A stretch of 64,000 bases of DNA from Cinnamomum chago (lineage: Eukaryota > Streptophyta > Magnoliopsida > Laurales > Lauraceae), in contig CP142455.1 in the NCBI GenBank assembly GCA_038049695.1, forward strand, positions 21,179,501-21,243,500, written 5' to 3'. Both the position numbers and the translations under genes were made by a program. This document shows positions 1 to 64,000 of the stretch, piece by piece (the stretch's first letter is position 1; each line of letters starts with the position of its first letter). The notes beneath the pieces were generated by a model. That model had not been told where the DNA came from and did no database searches. It saw only the letters and a program-made list of their open reading frames with translations.

Positions 1-1589
1 TTAATACCTTATGTGTCCATAATCATCACAGTTTTTTAGAGCGAAATGACACTTTTGTCCATCTTATATGCATAATTTTAAAAGTTTGGACTTAACTTTT
101 TTTTATAAAGCATGTAGCATTAACAATTTCACTTAGTGGGAGAAAATAATTCTACATAATTTTTTTTTTTATCAATGCAGGGCTCATTTTATTAAATCCA
201 AATTGATCGTGACGACAATTGACACCTGTACTTATAACCGATTATGATTTATCCAATCCATACATAACCCACCATTAGATTGATAAAAGTCTCAAAATAC
301 TTGATTATACTTCATGTATAGGGGGTTTAAAAGAAGTATGGGAACGGGTAAATGTAATATATATATATATTAATTTTTAGAATTTGTGGCGGGAGGTGTT
401 TGGCTCTATGTGAAAAAAATACTGGGGGAATGTGCAAATGTTAGAAAAAAATAATTTTTAGAATCTGCGGGGGGAGAGGAATTTTAAACTTTTCTCATAT
501 ATGGGTGGGGAATTCAGTTTCCAAGCCTTTGCACCTGGTTCCACCCATGGTCATGTAAATGAGAGAGTTATTGAGAGAAAGCATTGGGACTTGAGATAAA
601 ATAATGGTATTTTTATAAATAATAATAGACTCATTTTTGTTTAATAGATGTAAGGGGAAAATGTGTCATTTATATAAAAATTTAATACAAATCTCATGGT
701 AGCTACCATTCTTGTTAAGAATACTGATTTTGGTTGGAGATATAAAAGGTATTAAATAGAAAAGAGCGGGGTGTATTTACAAATGTTAAACCTCAGGAGC
801 CTACATATAAATCCTACAAACTTTAGAGGGGTATATACAAAAAACTCAAAAATATATCGTTTCAGATCATTCTATTCCTGTATTTGCTGGCGGTTGCATC
901 TATAACTTGAAAATCCTAACCCACTCAATATCCTGATTTAAGGAGTTACAAAGTTGAGTGAGGGAGTGTGCCGAGTCATTTAAACCCTAGGAATAACCTT
1001 ATAATTTTCATAGAGTACACACAGTACCAACTGTACATCTAGTATATAATGTATGGTACTGATATATAAAACTGTTCGGGTCGCTGGTAGTGATTTTGTT
1101 TTGGGCCCTCGCAAGCTGCTACCCGATCTGAACCCAACCGTTTAAACTTAAAATAGACCTTCCAATTAGGCGTCGGTATTCTAAATCGAGTGATACTGCG
1201 AACACCCCTTATTAAACTTAATTTACATTCTTTATAATAGCAAGTTGCTACCATGGGCCCACACGAGTAGGCCTGTCAATGAGACCGGCTGTGCCTGGCC
1301 TTGGGTAGGGTTGTCAGGGGTTGTCTGATTTTGATCCTAATTGAACAGGTGTATGCCAAATCCCGTCTCATCCGGGCCAAGGTTTATCACGATATTAAAA
1401 ATAATCTGAACATATTTTTTTTAGGTTGCTTGTTTTAAAAACTTTAATTTAAGGTTTGATAATGTATTTCATGTACGCTAGAGGGGGCTTTCTTACAGGC
1501 CTAGTGAGAGATTTTGCAAGGGACTACTGTAATCTATTTGTTCTCTTGGCTATATTTGGATCTTGTTCTCTCTATAATTCTTACGGCGA
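1..1589. other. AT-rich spacer, no gene recognised
   Basis: No coding region recognised on either strand. It holds a T-run around 166–177, a short (TA)n tract near 356–371, a perfect 14-bp palindrome at 696–709, and the repeat-like patch described separately at 1262–1390. The longest open frame is a 71-codon minus-strand stretch (1039–1254) that resembles no family I know. The gag N-terminus and 5' LTR expected just upstream of the copia relic are not recognisable here. With 7421–7767 this forms one continuous spacer across each unit junction. It recurs in copies 2–9. Confidence 0.7.
1262..1390. repeat. GC-rich repeat-like patch (possible hAT-type MITE remnant)
   Basis: A locally GC-rich stretch in AT-rich surroundings, beginning AGGCCTGTCAATGAGACCGG. 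Plant non-autonomous hAT-type elements often start with a similar GGCCTGTCAATGGG-like phrase rich in GGCC and CCGG, which is the only basis for this call. I did not find a convincing partner terminal repeat or target-site duplication. It could equally be unrelated intergenic repeat DNA. Confidence 0.25.
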
Positions 1590-2229
1590 GAGCTTTGTTC
1601 AAGCATCTCAGAATGGCCAGACAGTGGACCACCGAAGGCCCCAACTGCAGAATCTCCCACAGCAGCAAGGAAAGGCCTGACGACAGCCTCGTCAGTTCCA
1701 GTAACAGCAGCAGAACACGTACAATATACTGTTAAATGCCCGATATATGGCAAAGTGGTCAAATTGCTGTTGGTTGCTTGCACAGTTTTGACAACTCCTA
1801 CCAACTAGATCCCATTCCTCAGGCCCTACCCACAATGACCATTACTGGTCCTTCAAGATGATGAGTGGGTGGCAATTTCAGGTATGCCTTCTCATGGGAC
1901 AGGTAATCCTAGTAAAATACAAAATATTCACCTATGTTCTGGTGCTGGTGATGCCAAGATTCGTATTAGGAAAAATAATATCATTGTCCCCACTGTTTTG
2001 TTAGTTCTTAAGACGAAGTAGAACCTATAGTTTGTTATCAAATTTAAGATCTTTCTTCTTATTTTGTAGTATCAGATGTTTTTTTTTTTAATAAAGAAAA
2101 AGGGCACAGGGGCATTGGAGAAAGAGAGGGCTTGTTTTGTTTTTAGTCAGGAACAGCGGAACAGGACTACATTAAAGCAAATCTGGCATCAGCATCTCGG
2201 ACACGCTTAGGCAAAATTAGTTCAGTTTT

Positions 2230-2500
2230 TATTTTCTAGGTAATCTAATCTATTCATGTGGTTCTTGGAATAAAGCTCACTACGTGTTCAGTAGTTGTCA
2301 GTTGTGCTTTGCACTTGCATGCAAAGCATGAATTCTGCCATCGAATAATCATGCCACACAAGAGAGAGAGAGACGTGGATTTTATGTGGTTCAAGCATAG
2401 CCCGGGATACAAGACATAAACTCAACAAGTTGGAAAAAGGATGCACGCTTCTATTTACTGACAGTAATAAAGTTTTCACTAAGCCGCTTTATTGATATGA
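2230..2500. other. Unassigned segment inside the copia relic
   Basis: Between the GAG-pre-integrase motif (2184–2207) and the first integrase motif (from about 2505) I cannot read the usual zinc-finger-like integrase N-terminus (the C-x-x-C...GK pattern). The stretch instead holds a hairpin with 9-bp arms (2305–2313 and 2320–2328), a short GA tract near 2360–2373, and a phrase seen around other plant repeats. It may be extreme decay or another small insertion; no target duplication was identified. Confidence 0.35.
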
Positions 2501-4023
2501 TCCACAGTAATCTATGGAGCCCTTCTCCTATGTTTTCAAATCAAAAGTATAGTCATTATGTGCTTGTTGTGGAAGATTGCTATTGTTTCTCATGGGTTTG
2601 TCGCTTGAAAAAATGAAATCTGAATTTCTCTTTATTTCTATTAAATTTCAGAGAATGGTTGGAACAAGATTTCCTACTAAAGTAGAAGACTTTCAAAGTT
2701 GAGGGGGAGAATTTTCTAGTGCTGAATTTCTGAATCATCTCAATACTGGAAGGAGTTATTAGACAGTGTCCTACTGTCCTTCTCATGTACCTCTGAATAA
2801 AATGGTGTAGAAGAGAGAAAACACTGGAATGTTGTAGAGTCAGGATTGATTATATGCTATTTTGTTCACATGATCCTAAATTTTATATTGGGCAGAAGAG
2901 CTTCATGCGGCAGTGTACTTGATTAACAAGGTGTCTATAGCATAGTTGGGTATGTCCTCACCAATGTCAGCTGTTGTTTAATGGTGAACCTGATTGTTCC
3001 TCTCTTTCGATTTTTGGGTCTCTCTGTTTTACTCTCATTCAACATACTGTTGCAAATACTGGTGTTTTTTTCTGAGATTGGCTTACAACATAAAAGATTT
3101 CATCGCTGTCTTCAACCTTCAACTGGTAGGGCCTACATCTCCAGGCATGTCATGTTTGATGAGAATGTATTCCCATTTCCCTCTGCTAATAGTCTGCATA
3201 ATAATGTGCTGATTACGAGGGAACCGTCCACATTTTCTATTTGGAAGAACACATGTGATAGCAGGCAGCAGCAACACCAAATGTAGTCCAGGCGGACAAC
3301 AATGACGCATCAGATGCACTATAAAACTTTAACAAGTGAGGTTATACTCATGTAGTTGACATTCTTGCTCAACCACTCGCAAGTGGTCAGCCAAACAAAA
3401 TTCCGTACTTACTAGCTGATGTTCCTTCTGTTTTCCTTAGGAGCCTAGATCTGTCAAGTCCACTGAGCTCATACTGATCAGTATCAAGCTATGCAAGCAG
3501 CATTCAAAGGCAATAATACTTGGTGACTTGTGCATCGTCAGCTCATACAGATGCTATTGGTCGTCGTTGGCTTTAAAACAAAGCTCAAATATGAAGGTAA
3601 CCTTAAAGGACTCTCAGCTCATCTAGTTGCAAAGGGATACATCCAGAAGGAGGGTATGAATTTTTTTAGAGATATTTAATCAATTCATCAAAGTCCTTAT
3701 AGTTGCAACTGCCTCTAAATGGCCTATTAAACAACTAAATCTCAAAAATCTCCATGGTCTGCTTAAAGAACCTATTTTCATGGATCAGACACCTGGTTTT
3801 GTTGGTGATTCCACACCAGCCCATGTTTGTCATCTGCAAGCCCCAAGAGCCTTCTTGATCAATTTAGCTCATATTTCCTTTCTCTTGGATTCTTTTGCAG
3901 TTTGGCTGACAGCCATCTATTTCTGAATTGAACTTCTTCCAGCACTATTTTATTATTAGTTTTTGTTGATGATATTTTGGTGACGGGCAAAAATCCAGAT
4001 TATCAGTGAGTTCAACAACTTAG

Positions 4024-4208
4024 GGCCATTACTTTAGTGCCATGGTAAAAGTCTCGGGTGCCATACGTCATAACGCAGGTTCGAGACCTGAGAGCAACCA
4101 CTTTGTACAAAATTGCCAAAGGTTATGTTTGTCTCCAGTTTGGCCCCTCCCAGGACATGGCTTTGGCAGGACCCACACTGGGTAATGATCTTTTTTCAGT
4201 TTTGTTCT
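4024..4208 (+). mobile_element. Au-like SINE nested in copia reverse transcriptase
   Basis: A tRNA-derived short element of about 185 bp. An internal polymerase III box B (GTTCGAGAC, 4079–4087) fits the GWTCRANNC consensus exactly, and a box A-like AGTGCCATGG lies at 4036–4045. Downstream text (CCACTTTGTACAAAATTGCC, then a CCCACACTGGGT-type end and a T-run at 4191–4196) resembles the plant Au SINE family from memory. The insertion is framed by an imperfect 9-bp target duplication, ACAACTTAG (4015–4023) and ACAACTTGG (4209–4217), and it interrupts the copia reverse transcriptase shortly after FVDD. The SINE is therefore younger than the copia element. The mismatch in the duplication indicates later decay. 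Confidence 0.75.
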
Positions 4209-4935
4209 ACAACTTGGCCAAAACTTTGCAATGAGGAACTTGGTCCCAGTCACTATTTTCTTGGCGTAGAAGTGATTCCATTCACAGGTGGCATTTTCCT
4301 TTCTCAATTGAAATATTCCCAAGACTATCAGCATGTATTCAAATGGAGGGATCCAAGCATGCATCCACTTCCATTGCTCTTAAACATGAGCTTTCTGATC
4401 CTTCCCAGGCTTTTTCTACCCCAAAGTAAAATTGCAGTATTGTTGGTGCACTGCAGTATCTGATAATAACCTGTCTATATTCTCTTATTCTTTCGATTTT
4501 GTTTTCCAATTTATGAATAAACCTACAGTTGCACATTTTCAGGCTGTGAAAAGGATTTTGTTTCAGAACTCTCAGTCTACTACAGATCTCTATGTAGAGT
4601 GGGGAAGATGTTCTTCCACTAGGTTCTCTACTATGGGTTACTATACCTTTCTGGATGCAAGCCTCAGCCCTTGGTATGTTAAGAAACAATCTACTATGTA
4701 GCAGATCTAGCGTTGAAGCAGAATATTGAGCTATGGCCTCTACTAAAGCTGAGCTAACCTGGCTTACTTTTACTCTTCCTGAAATTTGTGTCTTTTATAT
4801 CGGAGCCCTATCCTGTTCTATAATAATTTTAATTCTTTGCACAAGAGTACAAGACTGCATATCCTTTTTTTCCATGCACGCACTAAACATATCAAGATGG
4901 ATTATAATTTTGTATAAGAGAAAATCTCCTTAGGA

Positions 4936-5700
4936 CTGTTCATATTCGCATGGAAAGACCCACAAATGACCATAAATAAGCTCTCCCTCAGAGAAAAAAC
5001 TAATTATCAAGGCAGATTGTCTACATCTTGTTGGCAATAAACAAGCCTTGGGCAAAGATGATGAGAGAAGCATCATGTATGAGATATTGAGTGACCTTAT
5101 TTACGAGATCAGTATTAGTAATCGCCGTGGATCTCGTATCAGATTTCTAAGTAATCCAGATGTGCCGGTTTGACGCGCCAGTGTAGCGAGTGACTAAGTT
5201 CAATAAGTAAATAATAGGAATTTGATGTACATTGAAACATTTGCTATATTATTTATGGCTTAATTGTTAACTTAAAACTGCATGGTTGTAAGGGTGCCAG
5301 ATGAGGTATTAACTTGGACAAGAGGAGTTCATGTCCTTAGGCAAGTACTGCTTTTCTAAGATAGAAAAGAAATAGGTCTTGGAAGCTCTATCAAGAGAAG
5401 AAGTTGAGTTCACAACAAGGAAATGCAGTGATAGTCCAAGTGGCCATCAGGTTGCATCTCTTCATGGATAATCGAAGTTGGTAAGAACTGATACACCGAT
5501 GCAAATATTAAAGTCCACCATCACATCAGTAAAACAGAACATTAATTCCATAATCCCCTAATTAAACTAAGATCATAGAGTATCCGAGATGTGGGTAAAA
5601 AAAATGAGATTATCATCTCGTGTGACCCACTTGTGGAACTGATTTACAGTAAGTTAATGTGTATATAGTCAGGCATGTGATGTGTATCTAGACGGGGGAT
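4936..5700. other. Spacer between copia relic and internal duplication, nothing recognised
   Basis: No open frame of note and no recognisable LTR, though a copia 3' LTR would be expected at its left side. Stop codons are frequent in all frames. Short inverted pieces (for example GTGGGT near 5590 and ACCCAC near 5625) are too small to interpret. It recurs in copies 2–8. Confidence 0.6.
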
Positions 5701-6090
5701 GGACTTTTTTATGTACGCAGCGTTCATGTCAAGTGGAAGATCGTGTGGCCTACATGCTACGGGCCCCATGCCAAATCAAGCAGGGTAGATGCTTGCAAGG
5801 AATACAACCCCACTTAATGTAAGACTTAATCTATCTCCACAAATCAGACTCGTAATAGGATCAGTGGTGTAGGTGTGAGTTTCTTAGCAAAGAAACTTTG
5901 TTTGGACTTTTTATGTACGTGGCGTTTGGAAGATCGTGTGGCCTACATGCTATGGGTCCCATGCCAGATCAAGCAGGGCATATGCTTGCACAAAATACAA
6001 CCCCACTTAATGTAAAATTTGATCCGTCTCCACAATTCAAACTCGTAAGAGGATCAGTGGCGTGGGTGTGAGTTTCTTGACGAAGAAGTC
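5701..6090. repeat. Internal direct duplication, two diverged copies of about 190 bp
   Basis: Copy A is 5701–5896 and copy B is 5904–6090, offset about 203 bases. They align over their full length, with scattered substitutions and a 9-base stretch present only in A (after the shared GCGTT). Shared landmarks in order: GGACTTTTTATGTAC, GATCGTGTGGCCTACATGCT, CAAGCAGGG, ATACAACCCCACTTAATGTA and GGTGTGAGTTTCTT. The divergence between A and B contrasts with near-perfect identity between 7,767-bp units, so this duplication is much older than the array. Function unknown. Confidence 0.9.
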
Positions 6091-6449
6091 TCCAATAAGA
6101 TGCAAAATGATCCGCGGAGATTCCCTATCGCCGCAACGAATATAGATCTATGTTCGGGTGTTGGAGTCTCCGTATCGAGATCCATCACATCTCCCTCTTC
6201 ATATTCTTCACCCTCTCACCCAATTTATATTCAAATCCATCCAAACAAAGGGCCTTCTAAGATTGGGGCTGGAAGGAGATTTCTTAGAGGGGCCCCATAT
6301 GCTAAAAATAAAAAAAAAATCCTCATAAAAAATGTAAAAAAAAAAAAACGTCTGGGTTCCATCAATGCCCTCCGGCATCCCAAACTCTGCCGCACAGATC
6401 ATCAAAAGACTTTTGAGGAAGGTGCAGAGGAATCAGTTCCTTCCTTAGA
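6091..6449. other. AT-rich stretch 3' of the ankyrin ORF (intronic or decayed), no gene assigned
   Basis: Downstream of the ankyrin exon on the minus strand, so it would be intron if the gene is spliced. It holds two A-runs near 6307–6319 and 6335–6348. A 142-codon plus-strand frame (6100–6528) passes through it, but it is low-complexity and Lys-rich and resembles no family. I found no ankyrin-like second exon here on the minus strand. Confidence 0.5.
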
Positions 6450-7109
6450 TTATATAAAAAAGAAAAGAAAAGGGATGTGCATATCAATATCATCAGAGGT
6501 TATTATTCGGAATGAAATGAGGCAGTAGTTACCGATTTGTTGCCGAAGAACTGCTGCGTGGAGAGGGGTGAGACCTTTGGGGCCTCTCCAAGAGGCATTT
6601 AACGCATCTTTGGTGACATTTAGGATATCTTGTACAATTTTAGCATCCCCTTCTTCTGCAGCTACATGGAGCGCAGAAGACTCAGCTTTGTTTGGAACGA
6701 ACACCAAATCACGGTCCTTCTCTATGAGTAGATCCACCAATTTATGGTTGCGGTGCCTCACAGCCTCGTGCAGGACCGTGTTTTTTTCCGCGTTCGTCAT
6801 CCTCAGCATCTGCCCTTTGAAACCCATCCTCTCAGCGCAATCGATGAGCTCGGCCACCAGGCCCAAATGCCCAGCTTTTGCTGCGACGTGCAGTGCAGTG
6901 TCGCCCCTTGAATTCAGCCTTAGAAGAAGTGATGGACATAGCGCACAGATGGTGACAACGAAATCGGTGTGCCCATGCACGGAGGCAATGTGCAAGGCCG
7001 TGTTCCCGTTGAAAGTGGATCCTTCTAGCGTGCGGGGGTTCCTGTCTGCGACTCGCATTAGCTCGATTGCGTTGCCGCATCTTGCAGAATTAAACAACTC
7101 TGGTTCCAT
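6450..7109 (-). CDS. ACD6-like ankyrin repeat protein, first exon only (219-codon ORF)
   Basis: Ankyrin repeats mediate protein binding. In plants, the ACD6/At5g02620-type family pairs N-terminal ankyrin repeats with C-terminal PGG-domain membrane helices and acts in defence and cell-death signalling. Four clear repeats are visible: residues 34–63 (GNTALHIASVHGH), 67–95 (GDTALHVAAKAGHLGLV), 108–137 (NTVLHEAVRHRNH) and 143–164 (SSALHVAAEEGD). A fifth begins at 178 (KGLTPLHAAVLR). The start ATG at 7107–7109 has a strong context (A at -3, G at +4). After residue 192 the similarity stops at a CG|GTAACT splice donor (6533|6532), so residues 193–219 are probably intron read-through ending in a Phe-rich tail. 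No second exon, further repeats or membrane domain were found in the unit. The frame is unbroken although neighbouring DNA is decayed. Whether it is expressed, spliced to something outside the array, or a gene fragment is undetermined. Confidence 0.82.
   Translation of the reverse strand: MEPELFNSARCGNAIELMRVADRNPRTLEGSTFNGNTALHIASVHGHTDFVVTICALCPSLLLRLNSRGDTALHVAAKAGHLGLVAELIDCAERMGFKGQMLRMTNAEKNTVLHEAVRHRNHKLVDLLIEKDRDLVFVPNKAESSALHVAAEEGDAKIVQDILNVTKDALNASWRGPKGLTPLHAAVLRQQIGNYCLISFRIITSDDIDMHIPFLFFFI
6531..6534 (-). other. Probable 5' splice site ending ankyrin exon 1
   Basis: On the minus strand the bases read ...AAATCG|GTAACT, with the GT at 6532–6531. Ankyrin similarity ends here, giving an exon of 577 nt from the ATG (192 codons plus one base, a phase-1 intron). 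The donor matches the plant consensus only moderately. No matching acceptor followed by ankyrin coding sequence was found. Confidence 0.5.
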
Positions 7110-7250
7110 TGTCGCAGCGCAGAGGAGGAGAGATGGATGAGTGCTGTGGAGTAGTCTGCATTTCTCAAGTCACTGAGAATTTCATTTTATTGAATATGCC
7201 AAACGCCAACAGATCCCTTAGTTGAGCAAGATGATCGACAAACTGTTACC

Positions 7251-7260
7251 CTTTATATAA
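7251..7260 (-). promoter_or_regulatory. TATA box of the ankyrin gene
   Basis: The minus strand reads TTATATAAAG, a good plant TATA element, about 142 bases upstream of the ATG at 7109. A start site roughly 30 bases downstream would give a 5' leader of about 110 bases containing CT-rich text just before the ATG, as is common in plant leaders. Position relative to a strong start codon supports it; no transcript evidence is available. Confidence 0.55.
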
Positions 7261-7328
7261 GACCGCAGAAGGAGGACAAACACGAGCCAAAAACGAAACG
7301 AACCATTCTCAAAGTATCATACATGCTA

Positions 7329-7420
7329 CCTGGACATACTCCGGGGGTCCGGTCCCCAGAGTATGTCCAGCACCTGGGATCCTACGGTCCTCATGGCCCG
7401 GTCCTCAAAGTATGTCTAGG
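7329..7420. repeat. Compact inverted/direct repeat cluster upstream of the ankyrin promoter
   Basis: A perfect 12-bp inverted repeat (CTGGACATACTC at 7330–7341, GAGTATGTCCAG at 7359–7370) continues past one mismatch into a GGGG/CCCC stem, making a strong hairpin. The right part is repeated directly: 7349–7370 and 7398–7419 match at 19 of 22 positions. The outer ends (7329 and 7420) are thus imperfect terminal inverted repeats of a roughly 92-bp segment, which suggests a miniature transposon. The bases just outside (TA on the left, TTA on the right) offer only a minimal target duplication. It lies about 70–170 bases upstream of the TATA box, so a regulatory role is possible but unsupported. 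Confidence 0.6.
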
Positions 7421-7767
7421 TTAACTTACTCATCATTATAACATTACATGCAAATTGGGCCGTGCTAGGTTTTAAACGGAGGCATTGCCTTCGAGGGCCA
7501 AGCCGGTCTAGCCCACGGGCCTTTCTTTCTTCAAATTTTTTTATGAATCAATGGTAAAATGGTCAAGCATGGGGAACTAAAGAGTTTCTTTGTGGGAAAG
7601 AAAGGGAGTGAGAGATGGCTAAATTTTACATAGGGAGTGTATAGATATTAATGAGGGAGGGCTAGGCTAGTTATGAATATGGGTAAAAAAGAAAAAAAAA
7701 TTATATAGCTTTTTTATATATTCTTCTAAGGTTTTAGTATTTGCAAATATGCATCTGTATTTTCATT
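7421..7767. other. Spacer to the unit junction
   Basis: No gene recognised. A GC-rich patch at about 7457–7523 (containing GGGCCGTGC and TAGCCCACGGGCC) sits in AT-rich DNA and resembles plant intergenic repeats. It may belong with the patch at 1262–1390 of the next unit, but that is speculative. The sequence runs into the next unit with no junction scar. Confidence 0.55.
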
Positions 7768-9356
7768 TTAATACCTTATGTGTCCATAATCATCACAGTT
7801 TTTTAGAGCGAAATGACACTTTTGTCCATCTTATATGCATAATTTTAAAAGTTTGGACTTAACTTTTTTTTATAAAGCATGTAGCATTAACAATTTCACT
7901 TAGTGGGAGAAAATAATTCTACATAATTTTTTTTTTTATCAATGCAGGGCTCATTTTATTAAATCCAAATTGATCGTGACGACAATTGACACCTGTACTT
8001 ATAACCGATTATGATTTATCCAATCCATACATAACCCACCATTAGATTGATAAAAGTCTCAAAATACTTGATTATACTTCATGTATAGGGGGTTTAAAAG
8101 AAGTATGGGAACGGGTAAATGTAATATATATATATATTAATTTTTAGAATTTGTGGCGGGAGGTGTTTGGCTCTATGTGAAAAAAATACTGGGGGAATGT
8201 GCAAATGTTAGAAAAAAATAATTTTTAGAATCTGCGGGGGGAGAGGAATTTTAAACTTTTCTCATATATGGGTGGGGAATTCAGTTTCCAAGCCTTTGCA
8301 CCTGGTTCCACCCATGGTCATGTAAATGAGAGAGTTATTGAGAGAAAGCATTGGGACTTGAGATAAAATAATGGTATTTTTATAAATAATAATAGACTCA
8401 TTTTTGTTTAATAGATGTAAGGGGAAAATGTGTCATTTATATAAAAATTTAATACAAATCTCATGGTAGCTACCATTCTTGTTAAGAATACTGATTTTGG
8501 TTGGAGATATAAAAGGTATTAAATAGAAAAGAGCGGGGTGTATTTACAAATGTTAAACCTCAGGAGCCTACATATAAATCCTACAAACTTTAGAGGGGTA
8601 TATACAAAAAACTCAAAAATATATCGTTTCAGATCATTCTATTCCTGTATTTGCTGGCGGTTGCATCTATAACTTGAAAATCCTAACCCACTCAATATCC
8701 TGATTTAAGGAGTTACAAAGTTGAGTGAGGGAGTGTGCCGAGTCATTTAAACCCTAGGAATAACCTTATAATTTTCATAGAGTACACACAGTACCAACTG
8801 TACATCTAGTATATAATGTATGGTACTGATATATAAAACTGTTCGGGTCGCTGGTAGTGATTTTGTTTTGGGCCCTCGCAAGCTGCTACCCGATCTGAAC
8901 CCAACCGTTTAAACTTAAAATAGACCTTCCAATTAGGCGTCGGTATTCTAAATCGAGTGATACTGCGAACACCCCTTATTAAACTTAATTTACATTCTTT
9001 ATAATAGCAAGTTGCTACCATGGGCCCACACGAGTAGGCCTGTCAATGAGACCGGCTGTGCCTGGCCTTGGGTAGGGTTGTCAGGGGTTGTCTGATTTTG
9101 ATCCTAATTGAACAGGTGTATGCCAAATCCCGTCTCATCCGGGCCAAGGTTTATCACGATATTAAAAATAATCTGAACATATTTTTTTTAGGTTGCTTGT
9201 TTTAAAAACTTTAATTTAAGGTTTGATAATGTATTTCATGTACGCTAGAGGGGGCTTTCTTACAGGCCTAGTGAGAGATTTTGCAAGGGACTACTGTAAT
9301 CTATTTGTTCTCTTGGCTATATTTGGATCTTGTTCTCTCTATAATTCTTACGGCGA

Positions 9357-12300
9357 GAGCTTTGTTCAAGCATCTCAGAATGGCCAGACAGTGGACCACC
9401 GAAGGCCCCAACTGCAGAATCTCCCACAGCAGCAAGGAAAGGCCTGACGACAGCCTCGTCAGTTCCAGTAACAGCAGCAGAACACGTACAATATACTGTT
9501 AAATGCCCGATATATGGCAAAGTGGTCAAATTGCTGTTGGTTGCTTGCACAGTTTTGACAACTCCTACCAACTAGATCCCATTCCTCAGGCCCTACCCAC
9601 AATGACCATTACTGGTCCTTCAAGATGATGAGTGGGTGGCAATTTCAGGTATGCCTTCTCATGGGACAGGTAATCCTAGTAAAATACAAAATATTCACCT
9701 ATGTTCTGGTGCTGGTGATGCCAAGATTCGTATTAGGAAAAATAATATCATTGTCCCCACTGTTTTGTTAGTTCTTAAGACGAAGTAGAACCTATAGTTT
9801 GTTATCAAATTTAAGATCTTTCTTCTTATTTTGTAGTATCAGATGTTTTTTTTTTTAATAAAGAAAAAGGGCACAGGGGCATTGGAGAAAGAGAGGGCTT
9901 GTTTTGTTTTTAGTCAGGAACAGCGGAACAGGACTACATTAAAGCAAATCTGGCATCAGCATCTCGGACACGCTTAGGCAAAATTAGTTCAGTTTTTATT
10001 TTCTAGGTAATCTAATCTATTCATGTGGTTCTTGGAATAAAGCTCACTACGTGTTCAGTAGTTGTCAGTTGTGCTTTGCACTTGCATGCAAAGCATGAAT
10101 TCTGCCATCGAATAATCATGCCACACAAGAGAGAGAGAGACGTGGATTTTATGTGGTTCAAGCATAGCCCGGGATACAAGACATAAACTCAACAAGTTGG
10201 AAAAAGGATGCACGCTTCTATTTACTGACAGTAATAAAGTTTTCACTAAGCCGCTTTATTGATATGATCCACAGTAATCTATGGAGCCCTTCTCCTATGT
10301 TTTCAAATCAAAAGTATAGTCATTATGTGCTTGTTGTGGAAGATTGCTATTGTTTCTCATGGGTTTGTCGCTTGAAAAAATGAAATCTGAATTTCTCTTT
10401 ATTTCTATTAAATTTCAGAGAATGGTTGGAACAAGATTTCCTACTAAAGTAGAAGACTTTCAAAGTTGAGGGGGAGAATTTTCTAGTGCTGAATTTCTGA
10501 ATCATCTCAATACTGGAAGGAGTTATTAGACAGTGTCCTACTGTCCTTCTCATGTACCTCTGAATAAAATGGTGTAGAAGAGAGAAAACACTGGAATGTT
10601 GTAGAGTCAGGATTGATTATATGCTATTTTGTTCACATGATCCTAAATTTTATATTGGGCAGAAGAGCTTCATGCGGCAGTGTACTTGATTAACAAGGTG
10701 TCTATAGCATAGTTGGGGATGTCCTCACCAATGTCAGCTGTTGTTTAATGGTGAACCTGATTGTTCCTCTCTTTCGATTTTTGGGTCTCTCTGTTTTACT
10801 CTCATTCAACATACTGTTGCAAATACTGGTGTTTTTTTCTGAGATTGGCTTACAACATAAAAGATTTCATCGCTGTCTTCAACCTTCAACTGGTAGGGCC
10901 TACATCTCCAGGCATGTCATGTTTGATGAGAATGTATTCCCATTTCCCTCTGCTAATAGTCTGCATAATAATGTGCTGATTACGAGGGAACCGTCCACAT
11001 TTTCTATTTGGAAGAACACATGTGATAGCAGGCAGCAGCAACACCAAATGTAGTCCAGGCGGACAACAATGACGCATCAGATGCACTATAAAACTTTAAC
11101 AAGTGAGGTTATACTCATGTAGTTGACATTCTTGCTCAACCACTCGCAAGTGGTCAGCCAAACAAAATTCCGTACTTACTAGCTGATGTTCCTTCTGTTT
11201 TCCTTAGGAGCCTAGATCTGTCAAGTCCACTGAGCTCATACTGATCAGTATCAAGCTATGCAAGCAGCATTCAAAGGCAATAATACTTGGTGACTTGTGC
11301 ATCGTCAGCTCATACAGATGCTATTGGTCGTCGTTGGCTTTAAAACAAAGCTCAAATATGAAGGTAACCTTAAAGGACTCTCAGCTCATCTAGTTGCAAA
11401 GGGATACATCCAGAAGGAGGGTATGAATTTTTTTAGAGATATTTAATCAATTCATCAAAGTCCTTATAGTTGCAACTGCCTCTAAATGGCCTATTAAACA
11501 ACTAAATCTCAAAAATCTCCATGGTCTGCTTAAAGAACCTATTTTCATGGATCAGACACCTGGTTTTGTTGGTGATTCCACACCAGCCCATGTTTGTCAT
11601 CTGCAAGCCCCAAGAGCCTTCTTGATCAATTTAGCTCATATTTCCTTTCTCTTGGATTCTTTTGCAGTTTGGCTGACAGCCATCTATTTCTGAATTGAAC
11701 TTCTTCCAGCACTATTTTATTATTAGTTTTTGTTGATGATATTTTGGTGACGGGCAAAAATCCAGATTATCAGTGAGTTCAACAACTTAGGGCCATTACT
11801 TTAGTGCCATGGTAAAAGTCTCGGGTGCCATACGTCATAACGCAGGTTCGAGACCTGAGAGCAACCACTTTGTACAAAATTGCCAAAGGTTATGTTTGTC
11901 TCCAGTTTGGCCCCTCCCAGGACATGGCTTTGGCAGGACCCACACTGGGTAATGATCTTTTTTCAGTTTTGTTCTACAACTTGGCCAAAACTTTGCAATG
12001 AGGAACTTGGTCCCAGTCACTATTTTCTTGGCGTAGAAGTGATTCCATTCACAGGTGGCATTTTCCTTTCTCAATTGAAATATTCCCAAGACTATCAGCA
12101 TGTATTCAAATGGAGGGATCCAAGCATGCATCCACTTCCATTGCTCTTAAACATGAGCTTTCTGATCCTTCCCAGGCTTTTTCTACCCCAAAGTAAAATT
12201 GCAGTATTGTTGGTGCACTGCAGTATCTGATAATAACCTGTCTATATTCTCTTATTCTTTCGATTTTGTTTTCCAATTTATGAATAAACCTACAGTTGCA

Positions 12301-12702
12301 CATTTTCAGGCTGTGAAAAGGATTTTGTTTCAGAACTCTCAGTCTACTACAGATCTCTATGTAGAGTGGGGAAGATGTTCTTCCACTAGGTTCTCTACTA
12401 TGGGTTACTATACCTTTCTGGATGCAAGCCTCAGCCCTTGGTATGTTAAGAAACAATCTACTATGTAGCAGATCTAGCGTTGAAGCAGAATATTGAGCTA
12501 TGGCCTCTACTAAAGCTGAGCTAACCTGGCTTACTTTTACTCTTCCTGAAATTTGTGTCTTTTATATCGGAGCCCTATCCTGTTCTATAATAATTTTAAT
12601 TCTTTGCACAAGAGTACAAGACTGCATATCCTTTTTTTCCATGCACGCACTAAACATATCAAGATGGATTATAATTTTGTATAAGAGAAAATCTCCTTAG
12701 GA
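9357..12702 (+). pseudogene. Decayed copia relic, array copy 2
   Basis: Same broken element as at 1590–4935, with the same stops; it differs from that copy by G at 10718 where copy 1 has T. Confidence 0.92.
11791..11975 (+). mobile_element. Au-like SINE nested in copia, array copy 2
   Basis: Copy of the 4024–4208 SINE, flanked by the same imperfect 9-bp duplication. Confidence 0.75.
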
Positions 12703-13467
12703 CTGTTCATATTCGCATGGAAAGACCCACAAATGACCATAAATAAGCTCTCCCTCAGAGAAAAAACTAATTATCAAGGCAGATTGTCTACATCTTGTTG
12801 GCAATAAACAAGCCTTGGGCAAAGATGATGAGAGAAGCATCATGTATGAGATATTGAGTGACCTTATTTACGAGATCAGTATTAGTAATCGCCGTGGATC
12901 TCGTATCAGATTTCTAAGTAATCCAGATGTGCCGGTTTGACGCGCCAGTGTAGCGAGTGACTAAGTTCAATAAGTAAATAATAGGAATTTGATGTACATT
13001 GAAACATTTGCTATATTATTTATGGCTTAATTGTTAACTTAAAACTGCATGGTTGTAAGGGTGCCAGATGAGGTATTAACTTGGACAAGAGGAGTTCATG
13101 TCCTTAGGCAAGTACTGCTTTTCTAAGATAGAAAAGAAATAGGTCTTGGAAGCTCTATCAAGAGAAGAAGTTGAGTTCACAACAAGGAAATGCAGTGATA
13201 GTCCAAGTGGCCATCAGGTTGCATCTCTTCATGGATAATCGAAGTTGGTAAGAACTGATACACCGATGCAAATATTAAAGTCCACCATCACATCAGTAAA
13301 ACAGAACATTAATTCCATAATCCCCTAATTAAACTAAGATCATAGAGTATCCGAGATGTGGGTAAAAAAAATGAGATTATCATCTCGTGTGACCCACTTG
13401 TGGAACTGATTTACAGTAAGTTAATGTGTATATAGTCAGGCATGTGATGTGTATCTAGACGGGGGAT

Positions 13468-14216: not shown

Positions 14217-14876
14217 TTATATAAAAAAGAAAAGAAAAGGGATGTGCATATCAATATCATCAGAGGTTATTATTCGGAATGAAATGAGGCAGTAGTTACC
14301 GATTTGTTGCCGAAGAACTGCTGCGTGGAGAGGGGTGAGACCTTTGGGGCCTCTCCAAGAGGCATTTAACGCATCTTTGGTGACATTTAGGATATCTTGT
14401 ACAATTTTAGCATCCCCTTCTTCTGCAGCTACATGGAGCGCAGAAGACTCAGCTTTGTTTGGAACGAACACCAAATCACGGTCCTTCTCTATGAGTAGAT
14501 CCACCAATTTATGGTTGCGGTGCCTCACAGCCTCGTGCAGGACCGTGTTTTTTTCCGCGTTCGTCATCCTCAGCATCTGCCCTTTGAAACCCATCCTCTC
14601 AGCGCAATCGATGAGCTCGGCCACCAGGCCCAAATGCCCAGCTTTTGCTGCGACGTGCAGTGCAGTGTCGCCCCTTGAATTCAGCCTTAGAAGAAGTGAT
14701 GGACATAGCGCACAGATGGTGACAACGAAATCGGTGTGCCCATGCACGGAGGCAATGTGCAAGGCCGTGTTCCCGTTGAAAGTGGATCCTTCTAGCGTGC
14801 GGGGGTTCCTGTCTGCGACTCGCATTAGCTCGATTGCGTTGCCGCATCTTGCAGAATTAAACAACTCTGGTTCCAT
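14217..14876 (-). CDS. ACD6-like ankyrin first exon, array copy 2
   Basis: Translation identical to the 6450–7109 ORF; the exon proper would end at 14300. Confidence 0.82.
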   Translation of the reverse strand: MEPELFNSARCGNAIELMRVADRNPRTLEGSTFNGNTALHIASVHGHTDFVVTICALCPSLLLRLNSRGDTALHVAAKAGHLGLVAELIDCAERMGFKGQMLRMTNAEKNTVLHEAVRHRNHKLVDLLIEKDRDLVFVPNKAESSALHVAAEEGDAKIVQDILNVTKDALNASWRGPKGLTPLHAAVLRQQIGNYCLISFRIITSDDIDMHIPFLFFFI

Positions 14877-21983: not shown

Positions 21984-22643
21984 TTATATAAAAAAGAAAA
22001 GAAAAGGGATGTGCATATCAATATCATCAGAGGTTATTATTCGGAATGAAATGAGGCAGTAGTTACCGATTTGTTGCCGAAGAACTGCTGCGTGGAGAGG
22101 GGTGAGACCTTTGGGGCCTCTCCAAGAGGCATTTAACGCATCTTTGGTGACATTTAGGATATCTTGTACAATTTTAGCATCCCCTTCTTCTGCAGCTACA
22201 TGGAGCGCAGAAGACTCAGCTTTGTTTGGAACGAACACCAAATCACGGTCCTTCTCTATGAGTAGATCCACCAATTTATGGTTGCGGTGCCTCACAGCCT
22301 CGTGCAGGACCGTGTTTTTTTCCGCGTTCGTCATCCTCAGCATCTGCCCTTTGAAACCCATCCTCTCAGCGCAATCGATGAGCTCGGCCACCAGGCCCAA
22401 ATGCCCAGCTTTTGCTGCGACGTGCAGTGCAGTGTCGCCCCTTGAATTCAGCCTTAGAAGAAGTGATGGACATAGCGCACAGATGGTGACAACGAAATCG
22501 GTGTGCCCATGCACGGAGGCAATGTGCAAGGCCGTGTTCCCGTTGAAAGTGGATCCTTCTAGCGTGCGGGGGTTCCTGTCTGCGACTCGCATTAGCTCGA
22601 TTGCGTTGCCGCATCTTGCAGAATTAAACAACTCTGGTTCCAT
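21984..22643 (-). CDS. ACD6-like ankyrin first exon, array copy 3
   Basis: Translation identical to the 6450–7109 ORF; exon end at 22067. Confidence 0.82.
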   Translation of the reverse strand: MEPELFNSARCGNAIELMRVADRNPRTLEGSTFNGNTALHIASVHGHTDFVVTICALCPSLLLRLNSRGDTALHVAAKAGHLGLVAELIDCAERMGFKGQMLRMTNAEKNTVLHEAVRHRNHKLVDLLIEKDRDLVFVPNKAESSALHVAAEEGDAKIVQDILNVTKDALNASWRGPKGLTPLHAAVLRQQIGNYCLISFRIITSDDIDMHIPFLFFFI

Positions 22644-29750: not shown

Positions 29751-30410
29751 TTATATAAAAAAGAAAAGAAAAGGGATGTGCATATCAATATCATCAGAGG
29801 TTATTATTCGGAATGAAATGAGGCAGTAGTTACCGATTTGTTGCCGAAGAACTGCTGCGTGGAGAGGGGTGAGACCTTTGGGGCCTCTCCAAGAGGCATT
29901 TAACGCATCTTTGGTGACATTTAGGATATCTTGTACAATTTTAGCATCCCCTTCTTCTGCAGCTACATGGAGCGCAGAAGACTCAGCTTTGTTTGGAACG
30001 AACACCAAATCACGGTCCTTCTCTATGAGTAGATCCACCAATTTATGGTTGCGGTGCCTCACAGCCTCGTGCAGGACCGTGTTTTTTTCCGCGTTCGTCA
30101 TCCTCAGCATCTGCCCTTTGAAACCCATCCTCTCAGCGCAATCGATGAGCTCGGCCACCAGGCCCAAATGCCCAGCTTTTGCTGCGACGTGCAGTGCAGT
30201 GTCGCCCCTTGAATTCAGCCTTAGAAGAAGTGATGGACATAGCGCACAGATGGTGACAACGAAATCGGTGTGCCCATGCACGGAGGCAATGTGCAAGGCC
30301 GTGTTCCCGTTGAAAGTGGATCCTTCTAGCGTGCGGGGGTTCCTGTCTGCGACTCGCATTAGCTCGATTGCGTTGCCGCATCTTGCAGAATTAAACAACT
30401 CTGGTTCCAT
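29751..30410 (-). CDS. ACD6-like ankyrin first exon, array copy 4
   Basis: Translation identical to the 6450–7109 ORF; exon end at 29834. Confidence 0.82.
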   Translation of the reverse strand: MEPELFNSARCGNAIELMRVADRNPRTLEGSTFNGNTALHIASVHGHTDFVVTICALCPSLLLRLNSRGDTALHVAAKAGHLGLVAELIDCAERMGFKGQMLRMTNAEKNTVLHEAVRHRNHKLVDLLIEKDRDLVFVPNKAESSALHVAAEEGDAKIVQDILNVTKDALNASWRGPKGLTPLHAAVLRQQIGNYCLISFRIITSDDIDMHIPFLFFFI

Positions 30411-37517: not shown

Positions 37518-38177
37518 TTATATAAAAAAGAAAAGAAAAGGGATGTGCATATCAATATCATCAGAGGTTATTATTCGGAATGAAATGAGGCAGTAGTTAC
37601 CGATTTGTTGCCGAAGAACTGCTGCGTGGAGAGGGGTGAGACCTTTGGGGCCTCTCCAAGAGGCATTTAACGCATCTTTGGTGACATTTAGGATATCTTG
37701 TACAATTTTAGCATCCCCTTCTTCTGCAGCTACATGGAGCGCAGAAGACTCAGCTTTGTTTGGAACGAACACCAAATCACGGTCCTTCTCTATGAGTAGA
37801 TCCACCAATTTATGGTTGCGGTGCCTCACAGCCTCGTGCAGGACCGTGTTTTTTTCCGCGTTCGTCATCCTCAGCATCTGCCCTTTGAAACCCATCCTCT
37901 CAGCGCAATCGATGAGCTCGGCCACCAGGCCCAAATGCCCAGCTTTTGCTGCGACGTGCAGTGCAGTGTCGCCCCTTGAATTCAGCCTTAGAAGAAGTGA
38001 TGGACATAGCGCACAGATGGTGACAACGAAATCGGTGTGCCCATGCACGGAGGCAATGTGCAAGGCCGTGTTCCCGTTGAAAGTGGATCCTTCTAGCGTG
38101 CGGGGGTTCCTGTCTGCGACTCGCATTAGCTCGATTGCGTTGCCGCATCTTGCAGAATTAAACAACTCTGGTTCCAT
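37518..38177 (-). CDS. ACD6-like ankyrin first exon, array copy 5
   Basis: Translation identical to the 6450–7109 ORF; exon end at 37601. Confidence 0.82.
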   Translation of the reverse strand: MEPELFNSARCGNAIELMRVADRNPRTLEGSTFNGNTALHIASVHGHTDFVVTICALCPSLLLRLNSRGDTALHVAAKAGHLGLVAELIDCAERMGFKGQMLRMTNAEKNTVLHEAVRHRNHKLVDLLIEKDRDLVFVPNKAESSALHVAAEEGDAKIVQDILNVTKDALNASWRGPKGLTPLHAAVLRQQIGNYCLISFRIITSDDIDMHIPFLFFFI

Positions 38178-45284: not shown

Positions 45285-45944
45285 TTATATAAAAAAGAAA
45301 AGAAAAGGGATGTGCATATCAATATCATCAGAGGTTATTATTCGGAATGAAATGAGGCAGTAGTTACCGATTTGTTGCCGAAGAACTGCTGCGTGGAGAG
45401 GGGTGAGACCTTTGGGGCCTCTCCAAGAGGCATTTAACGCATCTTTGGTGACATTTAGGATATCTTGTACAATTTTAGCATCCCCTTCTTCTGCAGCTAC
45501 ATGGAGCGCAGAAGACTCAGCTTTGTTTGGAACGAACACCAAATCACGGTCCTTCTCTATGAGTAGATCCACCAATTTATGGTTGCGGTGCCTCACAGCC
45601 TCGTGCAGGACCGTGTTTTTTTCCGCGTTCGTCATCCTCAGCATCTGCCCTTTGAAACCCATCCTCTCAGCGCAATCGATGAGCTCGGCCACCAGGCCCA
45701 AATGCCCAGCTTTTGCTGCGACGTGCAGTGCAGTGTCGCCCCTTGAATTCAGCCTTAGAAGAAGTGATGGACATAGCGCACAGATGGTGACAACGAAATC
45801 GGTGTGCCCATGCACGGAGGCAATGTGCAAGGCCGTGTTCCCGTTGAAAGTGGATCCTTCTAGCGTGCGGGGGTTCCTGTCTGCGACTCGCATTAGCTCG
45901 ATTGCGTTGCCGCATCTTGCAGAATTAAACAACTCTGGTTCCAT
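45285..45944 (-). CDS. ACD6-like ankyrin first exon, array copy 6
   Basis: Translation identical to the 6450–7109 ORF; exon end at 45368. Confidence 0.82.
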   Translation of the reverse strand: MEPELFNSARCGNAIELMRVADRNPRTLEGSTFNGNTALHIASVHGHTDFVVTICALCPSLLLRLNSRGDTALHVAAKAGHLGLVAELIDCAERMGFKGQMLRMTNAEKNTVLHEAVRHRNHKLVDLLIEKDRDLVFVPNKAESSALHVAAEEGDAKIVQDILNVTKDALNASWRGPKGLTPLHAAVLRQQIGNYCLISFRIITSDDIDMHIPFLFFFI

Positions 45945-53051: not shown

Positions 53052-53711
53052 TTATATAAAAAAGAAAAGAAAAGGGATGTGCATATCAATATCATCAGAG
53101 GTTATTATTCGGAATGAAATGAGGCAGTAGTTACCGATTTGTTGCCGAAGAACTGCTGCGTGGAGAGGGGTGAGACCTTTGGGGCCTCTCCAAGAGGCAT
53201 TTAACGCATCTTTGGTGACATTTAGGATATCTTGTACAATTTTAGCATCCCCTTCTTCTGCAGCTACATGGAGCGCAGAAGACTCAGCTTTGTTTGGAAC
53301 GAACACCAAATCACGGTCCTTCTCTATGAGTAGATCCACCAATTTATGGTTGCGGTGCCTCACAGCCTCGTGCAGGACCGTGTTTTTTTCCGCGTTCGTC
53401 ATCCTCAGCATCTGCCCTTTGAAACCCATCCTCTCAGCGCAATCGATGAGCTCGGCCACCAGGCCCAAATGCCCAGCTTTTGCTGCGACGTGCAGTGCAG
53501 TGTCGCCCCTTGAATTCAGCCTTAGAAGAAGTGATGGACATAGCGCACAGATGGTGACAACGAAATCGGTGTGCCCATGCACGGAGGCAATGTGCAAGGC
53601 CGTGTTCCCGTTGAAAGTGGATCCTTCTAGCGTGCGGGGGTTCCTGTCTGCGACTCGCATTAGCTCGATTGCGTTGCCGCATCTTGCAGAATTAAACAAC
53701 TCTGGTTCCAT
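53052..53711 (-). CDS. ACD6-like ankyrin first exon, array copy 7
   Basis: Translation identical to the 6450–7109 ORF; exon end at 53135. Confidence 0.82.
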   Translation of the reverse strand: MEPELFNSARCGNAIELMRVADRNPRTLEGSTFNGNTALHIASVHGHTDFVVTICALCPSLLLRLNSRGDTALHVAAKAGHLGLVAELIDCAERMGFKGQMLRMTNAEKNTVLHEAVRHRNHKLVDLLIEKDRDLVFVPNKAESSALHVAAEEGDAKIVQDILNVTKDALNASWRGPKGLTPLHAAVLRQQIGNYCLISFRIITSDDIDMHIPFLFFFI

Positions 53712-53862: not shown

Positions 53863-53930
53863 GACCGCAGAAGGAGGACAAACACGAGCCAAAAACGAAA
53901 CGAACCATTCTCAAAGTATCATACATGCTA

Positions 53931-54022
53931 CCTGGACATACTCCGGGGGTCCGGTCCCCAGAGTATGTCCAGCACCTGGGATCCTACGGTCCTCATGGCC
54001 CGGTCCTCAAAGTATGTCTAGG
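53931..54022. repeat. Inverted/direct repeat cluster, array copy 7
   Basis: Equivalent to 7329–7420. Confidence 0.6.
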
Positions 54023-60818: not shown

Positions 60819-61478
60819 TTATATAAAAAAGAAAAGAAAAGGGATGTGCATATCAATATCATCAGAGGTTATTATTCGGAATGAAATGAGGCAGTAGTTA
60901 CCGATTTGTTGCCGAAGAACTGCTGCGTGGAGAGGGGTGAGACCTTTGGGGCCTCTCCAAGAGGCATTTAACGCATCTTTGGTGACATTTAGGATATCTT
61001 GTACAATTTTAGCATCCCCTTCTTCTGCAGCTACATGGAGCGCAGAAGACTCAGCTTTGTTTGGAACGAACACCAAATCACGGTCCTTCTCTATGAGTAG
61101 ATCCACCAATTTATGGTTGCGGTGCCTCACAGCCTCGTGCAGGACCGTGTTTTTTTCCGCGTTCGTCATCCTCAGCATCTGCCCTTTGAAACCCATCCTC
61201 TCAGCGCAATCGATGAGCTCGGCCACCAGGCCCAAATGCCCAGCTTTTGCTGCGACGTGCAGTGCAGTGTCGCCCCTTGAATTCAGCCTTAGAAGAAGTG
61301 ATGGACATAGCGCACAGATGGTGACAACGAAATCGGTGTGCCCATGCACGGAGGCAATGTGCAAGGCCGTGTTCCCGTTGAAAGTGGATCCTTCTAGCGT
61401 GCGGGGGTTCCTGTCTGCGACTCGCATTAGCTCGATTGCGTTGCCGCATCTTGCAGAATTAAACAACTCTGGTTCCAT
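60819..61478 (-). CDS. ACD6-like ankyrin first exon, array copy 8
   Basis: Translation identical to the 6450–7109 ORF; exon end at 60902. Confidence 0.82.
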   Translation of the reverse strand: MEPELFNSARCGNAIELMRVADRNPRTLEGSTFNGNTALHIASVHGHTDFVVTICALCPSLLLRLNSRGDTALHVAAKAGHLGLVAELIDCAERMGFKGQMLRMTNAEKNTVLHEAVRHRNHKLVDLLIEKDRDLVFVPNKAESSALHVAAEEGDAKIVQDILNVTKDALNASWRGPKGLTPLHAAVLRQQIGNYCLISFRIITSDDIDMHIPFLFFFI

Positions 61479-61619
61479 TGTCGCAGCGCAGAGGAGGAGA
61501 GATGGATGAGTGCTGTGGAGTAGTCTGCATTTCTCAAGTCACTGAGAATTTCATTTTATTGAATATGCCAAACGCCAACAGATCCCTTAGTTGAGCAAGA
61601 TGATCGACAAACTGTTACC

Positions 61620-61629
61620 CTTTATATAA
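61620..61629 (-). promoter_or_regulatory. TATA box, array copy 8
   Basis: Same element, upstream of the ATG at 61478. Confidence 0.55.
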
Positions 61630-61697
61630 GACCGCAGAAGGAGGACAAACACGAGCCAAAAACGAAACGAACCATTCTCAAAGTATCATACATGCTA

Positions 61698-61789
61698 CCT
61701 GGACATACTCCGGGGGTCCGGTCCCCAGAGTATGTCCAGCACCTGGGATCCTACGGTCCTCATGGCCCGGTCCTCAAAGTATGTCTAGG
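61698..61789. repeat. Inverted/direct repeat cluster, array copy 8
   Basis: Equivalent to 7329–7420. Confidence 0.6.
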
Positions 61790-62136
61790 TTAACTTACTC
61801 ATCATTATAACATTACATGCAAATTGGGCCGTGCTAGGTTTTAAACGGAGGCATTGCCTTCGAGGGCCAAGCCGGTCTAGCCCACGGGCCTTTCTTTCTT
61901 CAAATTTTTTTATGAATCAATGGTAAAATGGTCAAGCATGGGGAACTAAAGAGTTTCTTTGTGGGAAAGAAAGGGAGTGAGAGATGGCTAAATTTTACAT
62001 AGGGAGTGTATAGATATTAATGAGGGAGGGCTAGGCTAGTTATGAATATGGGTAAAAAAGAAAAAAAAATTATATAGCTTTTTTATATATTCTTCTAAGG
62101 TTTTAGTATTTGCAAATATGCATCTGTATTTTCATT

Positions 62137-64000
62137 TTAATACCTTATGTGTCCATAATCATCACAGTTTTTTAGAGCGAAATGACACTTTTGTCCATCT
62201 TATATGCATAATTTTAAAAGTTTGGACTTAACTTTTTTTTATAAAGCATGTAGCATTAACAATTTCACTTAGTGGGAGAAAATAATTCTACATAATTTTT
62301 TTTTTTATCAATGCAGGGCTCATTTTATTAAATCCAAATTGATCGTGACGACAATTGACACCTGTACTTATAACCGATTATGATTTATCCAATCCATACA
62401 TAACCCACCATTAGATTGATAAAAGTCTCAAAATACTTGATTATACTTCATGTATAGGGGGTTTAAAAGAAGTATGGGAACGGGTAAATGTAATATATAT
62501 ATATATTAATTTTTAGAATTTGTGGCGGGAGGTGTTTGGCTCTATGTGAAAAAAATACTGGGGGAATGTGCAAATGTTAGAAAAAAATAATTTTTAGAAT
62601 CTGCGGGGGGAGAGGAATTTTAAACTTTTCTCATATATGGGTGGGGAATTCAGTTTCCAAGCCTTTGCACCTGGTTCCACCCATGGTCATGTAAATGAGA
62701 GAGTTATTGAGAGAAAGCATTGGGACTTGAGATAAAATAATGGTATTTTTATAAATAATAATAGACTCATTTTTGTTTAATAGATGTAAGGGGAAAATGT
62801 GTCATTTATATAAAAATTTAATACAAATCTCATGGTAGCTACCATTCTTGTTAAGAATACTGATTTTGGTTGGAGATATAAAAGGTATTAAATAGAAAAG
62901 AGCGGGGTGTATTTACAAATGTTAAACCTCAGGAGCCTACATATAAATCCTACAAACTTTAGAGGGGTATATACAAAAAACTCAAAAATATATCGTTTCA
63001 GATCATTCTATTCCTGTATTTGCTGGCGGTTGCATCTATAACTTGAAAATCCTAACCCACTCAATATCCTGATTTAAGGAGTTACAAAGTTGAGTGAGGG
63101 AGTGTGCCGAGTCATTTAAACCCTAGGAATAACCTTATAATTTTCATAGAGTACACACAGTACCAACTGTACATCTAGTATATAATGTATGGTACTGATA
63201 TATAAAACTGTTCGGGTCGCTGGTAGTGATTTTGTTTTGGGCCCTCGCAAGCTGCTACCCGATCTGAACCCAACCGTTTAAACTTAAAATAGACCTTCCA
63301 ATTAGGCGTCGGTATTCTAAATCGAGTGATACTGCGAACACCCCTTATTAAACTTAATTTACATTCTTTATAATAGCAAGTTGCTACCATGGGCCCACAC
63401 GAGTAGGCCTGTCAATGAGACCGGCTGTGCCTGGCCTTGGGTAGGGTTGTCAGGGGTTGTCTGATTTTGATCCTAATTGAACAGGTGTATGCCAAATCCC
63501 GTCTCATCCGGGCCAAGGTTTATCACGATATTAAAAATAATCTGAACATATTTTTTTTAGGTTGCTTGTTTTAAAAACTTTAATTTAAGGTTTGATAATG
63601 TATTTCATGTACGCTAGAGGGGGCTTTCTTACAGGCCTAGTGAGAGATTTTGCAAGGGACTACTGTAATCTATTTGTTCTCTTGGCTATATTTGGATCTT
63701 GTTCTCTCTATAATTCTTACGGCGAGAGCTTTGTTCAAGCATCTCAGAATGGCCAGACAGTGGACCACCGAAGGCCCCAACTGCAGAATCTCCCACAGCA
63801 GCAAGGAAAGGCCTGACGACAGCCTCGTCAGTTCCAGTAACAGCAGCAGAACACGTACAATATACTGTTAAATGCCCGATATATGGCAAAGTGGTCAAAT
63901 TGCTGTTGGTTGCTTGCACAGTTTTGACAACTCCTACCAACTAGATCCCATTCCTCAGGCCCTACCCACAATGACCATTACTGGTCCTTCAAGATGATGA
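62137..64000. repeat. Tandem array unit, copy 9 (partial, cut by window end)
   Basis: First 1,864 bp of a further unit, covering the spacer and the beginning of the copia relic. It ends because the window ends, not because the array visibly ends. Confidence 0.98.
63726..64000 (+). pseudogene. Decayed copia relic, array copy 9 (cut by window end)
   Basis: Only the gag C-terminal part is present, up to the start of the protease stretch; the rest lies beyond the window. Confidence 0.85.

Follow-up and report, generated by a model that had tools for sequence, protein, structure and literature searches.

A tandem array of the 5' end of an ACD6-like gene in the assembled genome of Cinnamomum chago

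The closest precedent for the locus described here is PEP1, the FLC orthologue of Arabis alpina, for which two exon-1 copies have been reported that are both spliced to one exon 2 (PMC3527215; reviewed in PMC7927791). According to the accessible text of that study, the copies lie 6.3 kb apart, about 2 kb were duplicated, and both are used as judged by complementary DNA (cDNA) and 5' rapid amplification of cDNA ends (PMC3527215). The organisations of Ugt1, Gcnt2 and Ugt2a have been called vertebrate-specific in the corresponding section of PMC1885805. For maize P1-wr, the accessible part of the account describes eleven repeats of 12.6-13.0 kb, nearly perfect and arranged head to tail, for which the authors invoke unequal crossover together with gene conversion (PMC2686159). 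A search of open-licence full text found no plant array with more than two first exons, which is no proof of absence. Here, a stretch of 64,000 nucleotides from Cinnamomum chago (contig CP142455.1, below called C5) was analysed, referred to as the window, which lies inside a tandem array formed by the front end of a gene resembling ACCELERATED CELL DEATH 6 (ACD6).

Reading of the flanks over 260 kb (C5:21,060,001-21,320,000, the region to which the counts of exons 2 and 3 apply) and searches of the genome (1.061 Gb in 14 contigs) led to the view that the locus is very probably a three-exon ACD6-like gene, whose 5' block was duplicated in tandem and then amplified. The features on which this view is based are the following, with window positions counted from the first letter of the window:

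C5:21,179,501-21,243,500: the window, with c08-c14 as whole units, c07 over 4,943 bp and c15 over 4,688 bp
C5:21,122,217-21,289,335: the whole array, a single array of 20 complete units, c00 to c19, delimited by reading the flanks
Window 4944..12710, plus strand: c08 in full, with the junction of the original duplication taken as the unit start
Window 4943/4944 + 7767k: the unit junctions in the window
Window 6533..7109, minus strand: exon 1 of the ACD6-like gene, 192 codons plus 1 nt, with ankyrin repeats
Window 14300-14876, 22067-22643, 29834-30410, 37601-38177, 45368-45944, 53135-53711 and 60902-61478: the repeats of exon 1
Window 6527..6532, minus strand: the splice donor GTAACT after exon 1, phase 1, in 20/20 units
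C5:21,121,648-21,121,116: exon 2, just beyond the left end of the array, Pfam Ank above cut-off
C5:21,118,205-21,117,504: exon 3, left of the array and outside it, Pfam PGG above cut-off

Exon 1 is translated into 192 residues with ankyrin repeats, and the Pfam Ank match lies above the cut-off. The best 120 of 2,872 matches in a protein search were plant ankyrin proteins, most of them with a PGG domain; several relatives among the matches listed are named ACCELERATED CELL DEATH 6, and avocado ranked top with 54% over the exon. A comparison with the PDB returned generic ankyrin matches only and was not used. When eight ankyrin/PGG proteins were compared with the unit, each of them aligned to exon 1 and to nothing else.

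The remainder of the gene is located to the left of the array. The 260 kb contain 20 full matches to exon 1 and exons 2 and 3 once each, and every copy of exon 1 is oriented towards exons 2 and 3. Exon 1 of c00, exon 2 and exon 3 join in frame to 1,812 nt encoding 603 residues with a single terminal stop, and both introns of the joined gene possess GT-AG sites. This protein is 62% identical to the avocado protein over 559 residues, its frame is colinear with the compared protein P0002, and a single open frame holds ankyrin repeats at the N terminus and a PGG domain at the C terminus, the arrangement of ACD6-like ankyrin/PGG proteins. An amplification of the whole gene, in which each repeat would be a complete gene, was rejected since exons 2 and 3 are absent inside the array.

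Within the window the repetition is very regular. Self-comparison revealed 99.988% identity at a shift of 7,767 and at its multiples up to 38,835, and at most 29.5% at all other shifts tested (1 to 39,999). The window consists of 8 full periods plus 1,864 bp without any N or indel, and 4 of the 7,767 unit positions are variable, each in one copy (window 2951, 36262, 47061 and 48764). Tandem Repeats Finder reported nothing for the window, because the longest period it covered was 500. Across the 260 kb, the junction sequence occurs 19 times with up to 3 substitutions allowed, from which 20 units follow. A 41-base pattern of exon 1 (up to 3 mismatches) is present at a minimum of 20 places in the genome, all of them at C5:21,124,020-21,271,875 and on the same strand, so that it was found in one array only. 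Satellite DNA was rejected on account of the 7.8-kb unit with a coding exon and of this single array found with the exon 41-mer (up to 3 mismatches).

An earlier sequence-only reading of the window had described eight full copies and a partial ninth, head to tail without spacer, and had placed both window edges inside a larger array. The periods counted here bear this out, as do the 20 units with two defined edges in the assembly. Its exact period of 7,767 bp holds within the window but not array-wide, where 13 of 20 units have this length and the others range from 7,531 to about 7,900 bp (c19 being counted without its 11.5-kb insertion, which was removed roughly: 11,544 bp were cut for an element of 11,525 bp). 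It had further proposed block amplification of a complex locus, and this was right in excluding both satellite DNA and whole-gene duplication. However, the exon had been taken as one exon of the amplified locus, whereas the amplification is limited to the front of the gene, comprising the promoter, exon 1 and a portion of intron 1, and exons 2 and 3 are single in the 260 kb.

Every unit comprises the promoter region and exon 1 together with 1.6 kb of intron 1, and lacks exons 2 and 3. In line with the contents read earlier, namely a gene exon, its promoter, a retrotransposon relic and a short interspersed nuclear element (SINE), the following further features were located, given in window positions:

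7110..7767, minus strand: promoter region, which holds most of the differences between A- and B-type units
7252-7260: TATA-like site upstream of the ATG, in 20/20 units, with putative promoter activity
7316..7431: variable promoter stretch, 116 bp without counterpart in c00 and of other lengths in other unit types
5734..6087: direct duplication in the intron, two 161-nt copies with a spacing of 193 and 87% alike; c00 is without 193 bp here
3089..4943, plus strand: pieces of a decayed Copia-type retrotransposon, with weak Pfam matches at 3089-3178 and 3687-3839
4022..4203, plus strand: tRNA-derived SINE-like insertion, which sits inside the Copia relic

The Copia-type matches are SH3_retrovirus and RVT_2, both under the Pfam cut-off; the rest up to the unit junction, read by eye, we take to be Copia relic as well. 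The SINE-like insertion displays an exact box B, GGTTCGAGACC, at 4078 and 12-bp flanking repeats, GTTCAACAACTT/GTTCTACAACTT, at 4010 and 4204, which differ at one base. A structural RNA and tRNA search of window 1-9000 gave no matches. The variable promoter stretch (window 7316-7431) and its equivalents contain nested sub-repeats, and in c16 and c19 a second TATA-like site is present in an extra promoter stretch.

As a record of the birth of a tandem array, the locus has kept the two breakpoints of the first duplication and the outermost unit at either end, along with homogenisation at several stages. The left flank reads AACAT/TTCGC and the right flank GTTCAT/CACTG, with the slash marking the break, and the internal junction reads GTTCAT-A-TTCGC. 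These letters fit one tandem duplication as the founding event, with a left break in intron 1 and a right break in the Copia relic upstream of the promoter. The founding join looks non-homologous, with a one-base filler, because a BLAST search with the unit gave nothing similar on the left side of the break. On the same result, a founding recombination between two Copia copies was rejected, unrelated Copia sequences not being searched for there. The right flank presumably continues with copia-like letters, as read by eye. In the course of events suggested here, the block from intron 1 to the upstream Copia relic would have been duplicated in tandem, and unequal crossing over and gene conversion would have lifted it to about 20 units, of which the inner ones would have been homogenised and the outermost ones left diverged. 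The gene would thereby have gained many identical front ends.

Divergence between the units drops from the edge to the centre, the outer units being diverged by about 2-3% and the inner units near-identical. The outermost pair, c00 and c19, shows 255 substitutions in 7,423 aligned bp, and 224, 137 and 43 substitutions were counted for c00-c08, c19-c08 and c01-c08, respectively; on the promoter side, MAFFT put parts of c16 and c19 in the wrong place, and the counts for these two units therefore include some misaligned columns. Their promoter-side part was also inspected directly. The twelve A-type units have 0.8 mutual differences on average. The B-type units (c01, c02 and c04-c06) differ from them chiefly in the promoter, and both promoter types are interspersed along the array. 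At 8 of the 11 intron positions where c01 differs from c08, it carries the c00 letter. These shared letters, together with the interspersed promoter types, fit an exchange between units. Unit c19 equals c08 over its first 2.4 kb including exon 1 and is diverged beyond. The 193-bp intron duplication and the 116 bp of promoter are missing in c00 and were therefore gained or lost after the first duplication. Taken together, the pattern is that of concerted evolution with diverged edges. For c00 and c19, an age of 2.5-5.9 million years was obtained, a rough value that is lowered by conversion and assumes a rate of 3-7e-9 per site per year.

The exon itself is retained throughout: ATG, stop-free frame, donor, phase and the 192-residue translation are kept in all 20 units, and exon 1 of c00 differs from the other units by one synonymous base at coding position 117. 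Around exon 1, c00 and c08 differ by 1 substitution in 794 bp, compared to 3.4% outside. Of this quiet block, 182 bp lie in the intron and 35 bp precede the ATG. Since it includes non-coding bases, conversion would be required, and selection on the protein alone would be insufficient. Another 794-bp stretch of the same pair holds just 4 substitutions, and due to this patchy divergence the result of a Poisson test on the quiet block around exon 1 (P about 7e-11) was set aside.

Such a pattern could also have arisen in a neutral by-product, that is, an illegitimate duplication which grew by unequal exchange and whose distal copies are methylated and functionless. Unequal exchange yields diverged outer and near-identical inner units even without selection, and the unit is partly a relic of a transposable element. 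What this account has to accommodate is an exon 1 that is open and protein-identical in 20/20 units, including the diverged c00; nevertheless, conversion explains that too. A neutral or silenced by-product is a serious candidate, although its likelihood is somewhat below one half.

Two points weigh against the structure as assembled. The 20 units represent 11 distinct sequences, 8 of the 20 being identical, and the 33 kb from window 2951 to 36262 are free of variants. Such a distance is beyond the span of ordinary HiFi reads. Given the identical units and this variant-free stretch, the assembled copy number could be off. Secondly, c16 (C5:21246580-21254346, outside the window) equals c19 for 2,751 bp and is then of A type, with a total of exactly 7,767 bp; the type switches at an equal offset and not at the homologous base. 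This unit resembles a register chimera, a possible assembly flaw. The eight identical units and the type switch of c16 would also suit an artefact, in which one or a few true units had been multiplied by the assembler. This is very unlikely, because 11 distinct sequences, a graded divergence and unique flanks with matching breakpoints need a real multi-unit array, and the doubt mainly concerns the count. In our view the array is real, and the number 20 rests on the assembly.

For the duplicated 5' block of the ACD6-like gene, the question of function centres on the distal first exons. Since first exons possess only the 5' splice site and lack a 3' one, a distal transcript that reaches the left end of the array meets exon 2 as the next known acceptor. 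The distance from exon 1 to exon 2 extends from 2,006 bp (c00) to 149,821 bp (c19), with introns of 2.0 kb for c00, 9.7 kb for c01 and 17.5 kb for c02. A transcript of a distal unit spliced to exon 2 would give the same protein, and donors, phase, orientation and TATA-like sites are compatible with such splicing. It is conceivable, if not quite probable, that one or more of the distal first exons are joined to exon 2 in the living plant. Full-length mRNA would be expected mainly from the proximal c00 and perhaps also from c01-c02, similar to the situation at PEP1 of Arabis alpina; the more distant units are expected to produce mostly early-ending 5' transcripts or to be silent.

A multi-promoter gene would go further, with most or all of the 20 first exons being transcribed and spliced to the shared exons 2 and 3, and with array length setting the dose of one immune regulator, a large-scale counterpart of PEP1 in the layout of UGT1 and protocadherin. 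The ATG, open frame, donor and TATA-like site kept in 20/20 units, the single orientation and the lack of any exon 2 within the array would fit this, as would the single synonymous substitution in the quiet block and the two-copy plant precedent in the accessible text of PMC3527215. On the contrary, introns would reach up to 150 kb and run through repeated Copia relics, recent homogenisation alone would likewise keep the reading frames, and the quiet block takes in intron and 5' flank, so that selection on the protein alone fails, with only 4 substitutions in the other stretch of this length. We consider this unlikely. Slightly more doubtful still is the full version, in which some 20 promoters of nearly the same sequence would serve identical first exons, every one of them spliced to the single exon 2-3 set over introns of 2-150 kb, and unequal crossing over would alter promoter number, and hence immune-regulator dose, without gene duplication.

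Another use of the distal units would not require exon 2. Short, intron-retaining transcripts may yield an ankyrin-only, soluble protein of about 219 residues, a possible competitor of the membrane protein. In the window units, the frame stays open for 27 codons beyond the final complete codon of the exon and then reaches a stop, and in plant immunity partially duplicated interaction domains can be functional, as stated in the relevant part of the HvARM1 account (PMC6092874). However, a scan of c08 for four polyadenylation-like motifs, covering the 1.6 kb that follow exon 1, gave only AATAAT (twice) and TATAAA (once), and AATAAA was absent. Such truncated products also seem rather improbable, though a little less so than the multi-promoter gene. 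The likelihoods given for distal use, short products and silence overlap in part.

Copy-number variation in plants is usually framed as extra genes; here, front ends are multiplied, and in the 260 kb covered the rest of the gene is single. Should even a small number of the distal first exons be in use, the array would act as a promoter-dose switch that is lengthened or shortened by unequal exchange, and it would offer a natural test of splicing distance for a plant first exon. Annotation pipelines would probably list the locus as many truncated genes plus one.

Some further observations concern c19 and the contigs. Two small contigs, of 707,525 and 152,753 bp, are probably the mitochondrion and the plastid. 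The matK frame on the 152,753-bp contig shows 100% identity to a cluster named Litsea glutinosa and, over 98% of its length, 100% to Laurus azorica; since both belong to Laureae, this places the plant in Lauraceae and probably in Laureae. Twelve large contigs would agree with the 2n = 24 of Litsea cubeba (PMC7125107). Unit c19 is split by an insertion of 11,525 bp (C5:about 21273219-21284743) with 175-bp terminal inverted repeats, 99% alike, and a TA-repeat target; by its structure, it appears to be a DNA transposon like the Mutator-like elements (MULEs). The first 80 bases of contigs C1, C5 and C12 are N, and the counts of TTTAGGG/CCCTAAA are zero in the first kilobase of C1, C5 and C12 and in the last kilobase of C5.

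Compared with known systems, the gene is called ACD6-like by family only. It shares with Arabidopsis ACD6 the combination of ankyrin repeats and a transmembrane protein, and the ACD6 locus also varies widely in copy number and sequence, but the accessible part of that account describes no first-exon array (PMC6168153). The likeness to vertebrate UGT1 and protocadherin is one of layout only: same-orientation tandem first exons lie upstream of one constant exon set (PMC1885805, in the section concerned), and a common 3' exon set was found here as well. In contrast, their first exons are diverse and lead to many proteins, whereas here 20/20 encode the same 192 residues. With PEP1, the locus shares a tandem duplication that includes exon 1 along with portions of the promoter and of intron 1, with upstream sequences that differ between the copies, and more than one tandem promoter and exon-1 copy faces one exon 2 in the 260 kb. 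The array described here differs in having 20 units of 7.8 kb and in belonging to another gene family, and the splicing of its distal exon-1 copies to exon 2 is putative. Maize P1-wr, as far as the accessible text goes, resembles it in its near-perfect head-to-tail repeats with relics of transposable elements; however, each P1-wr repeat is a whole gene, whereas the unit in C. chago is the front of a gene only.

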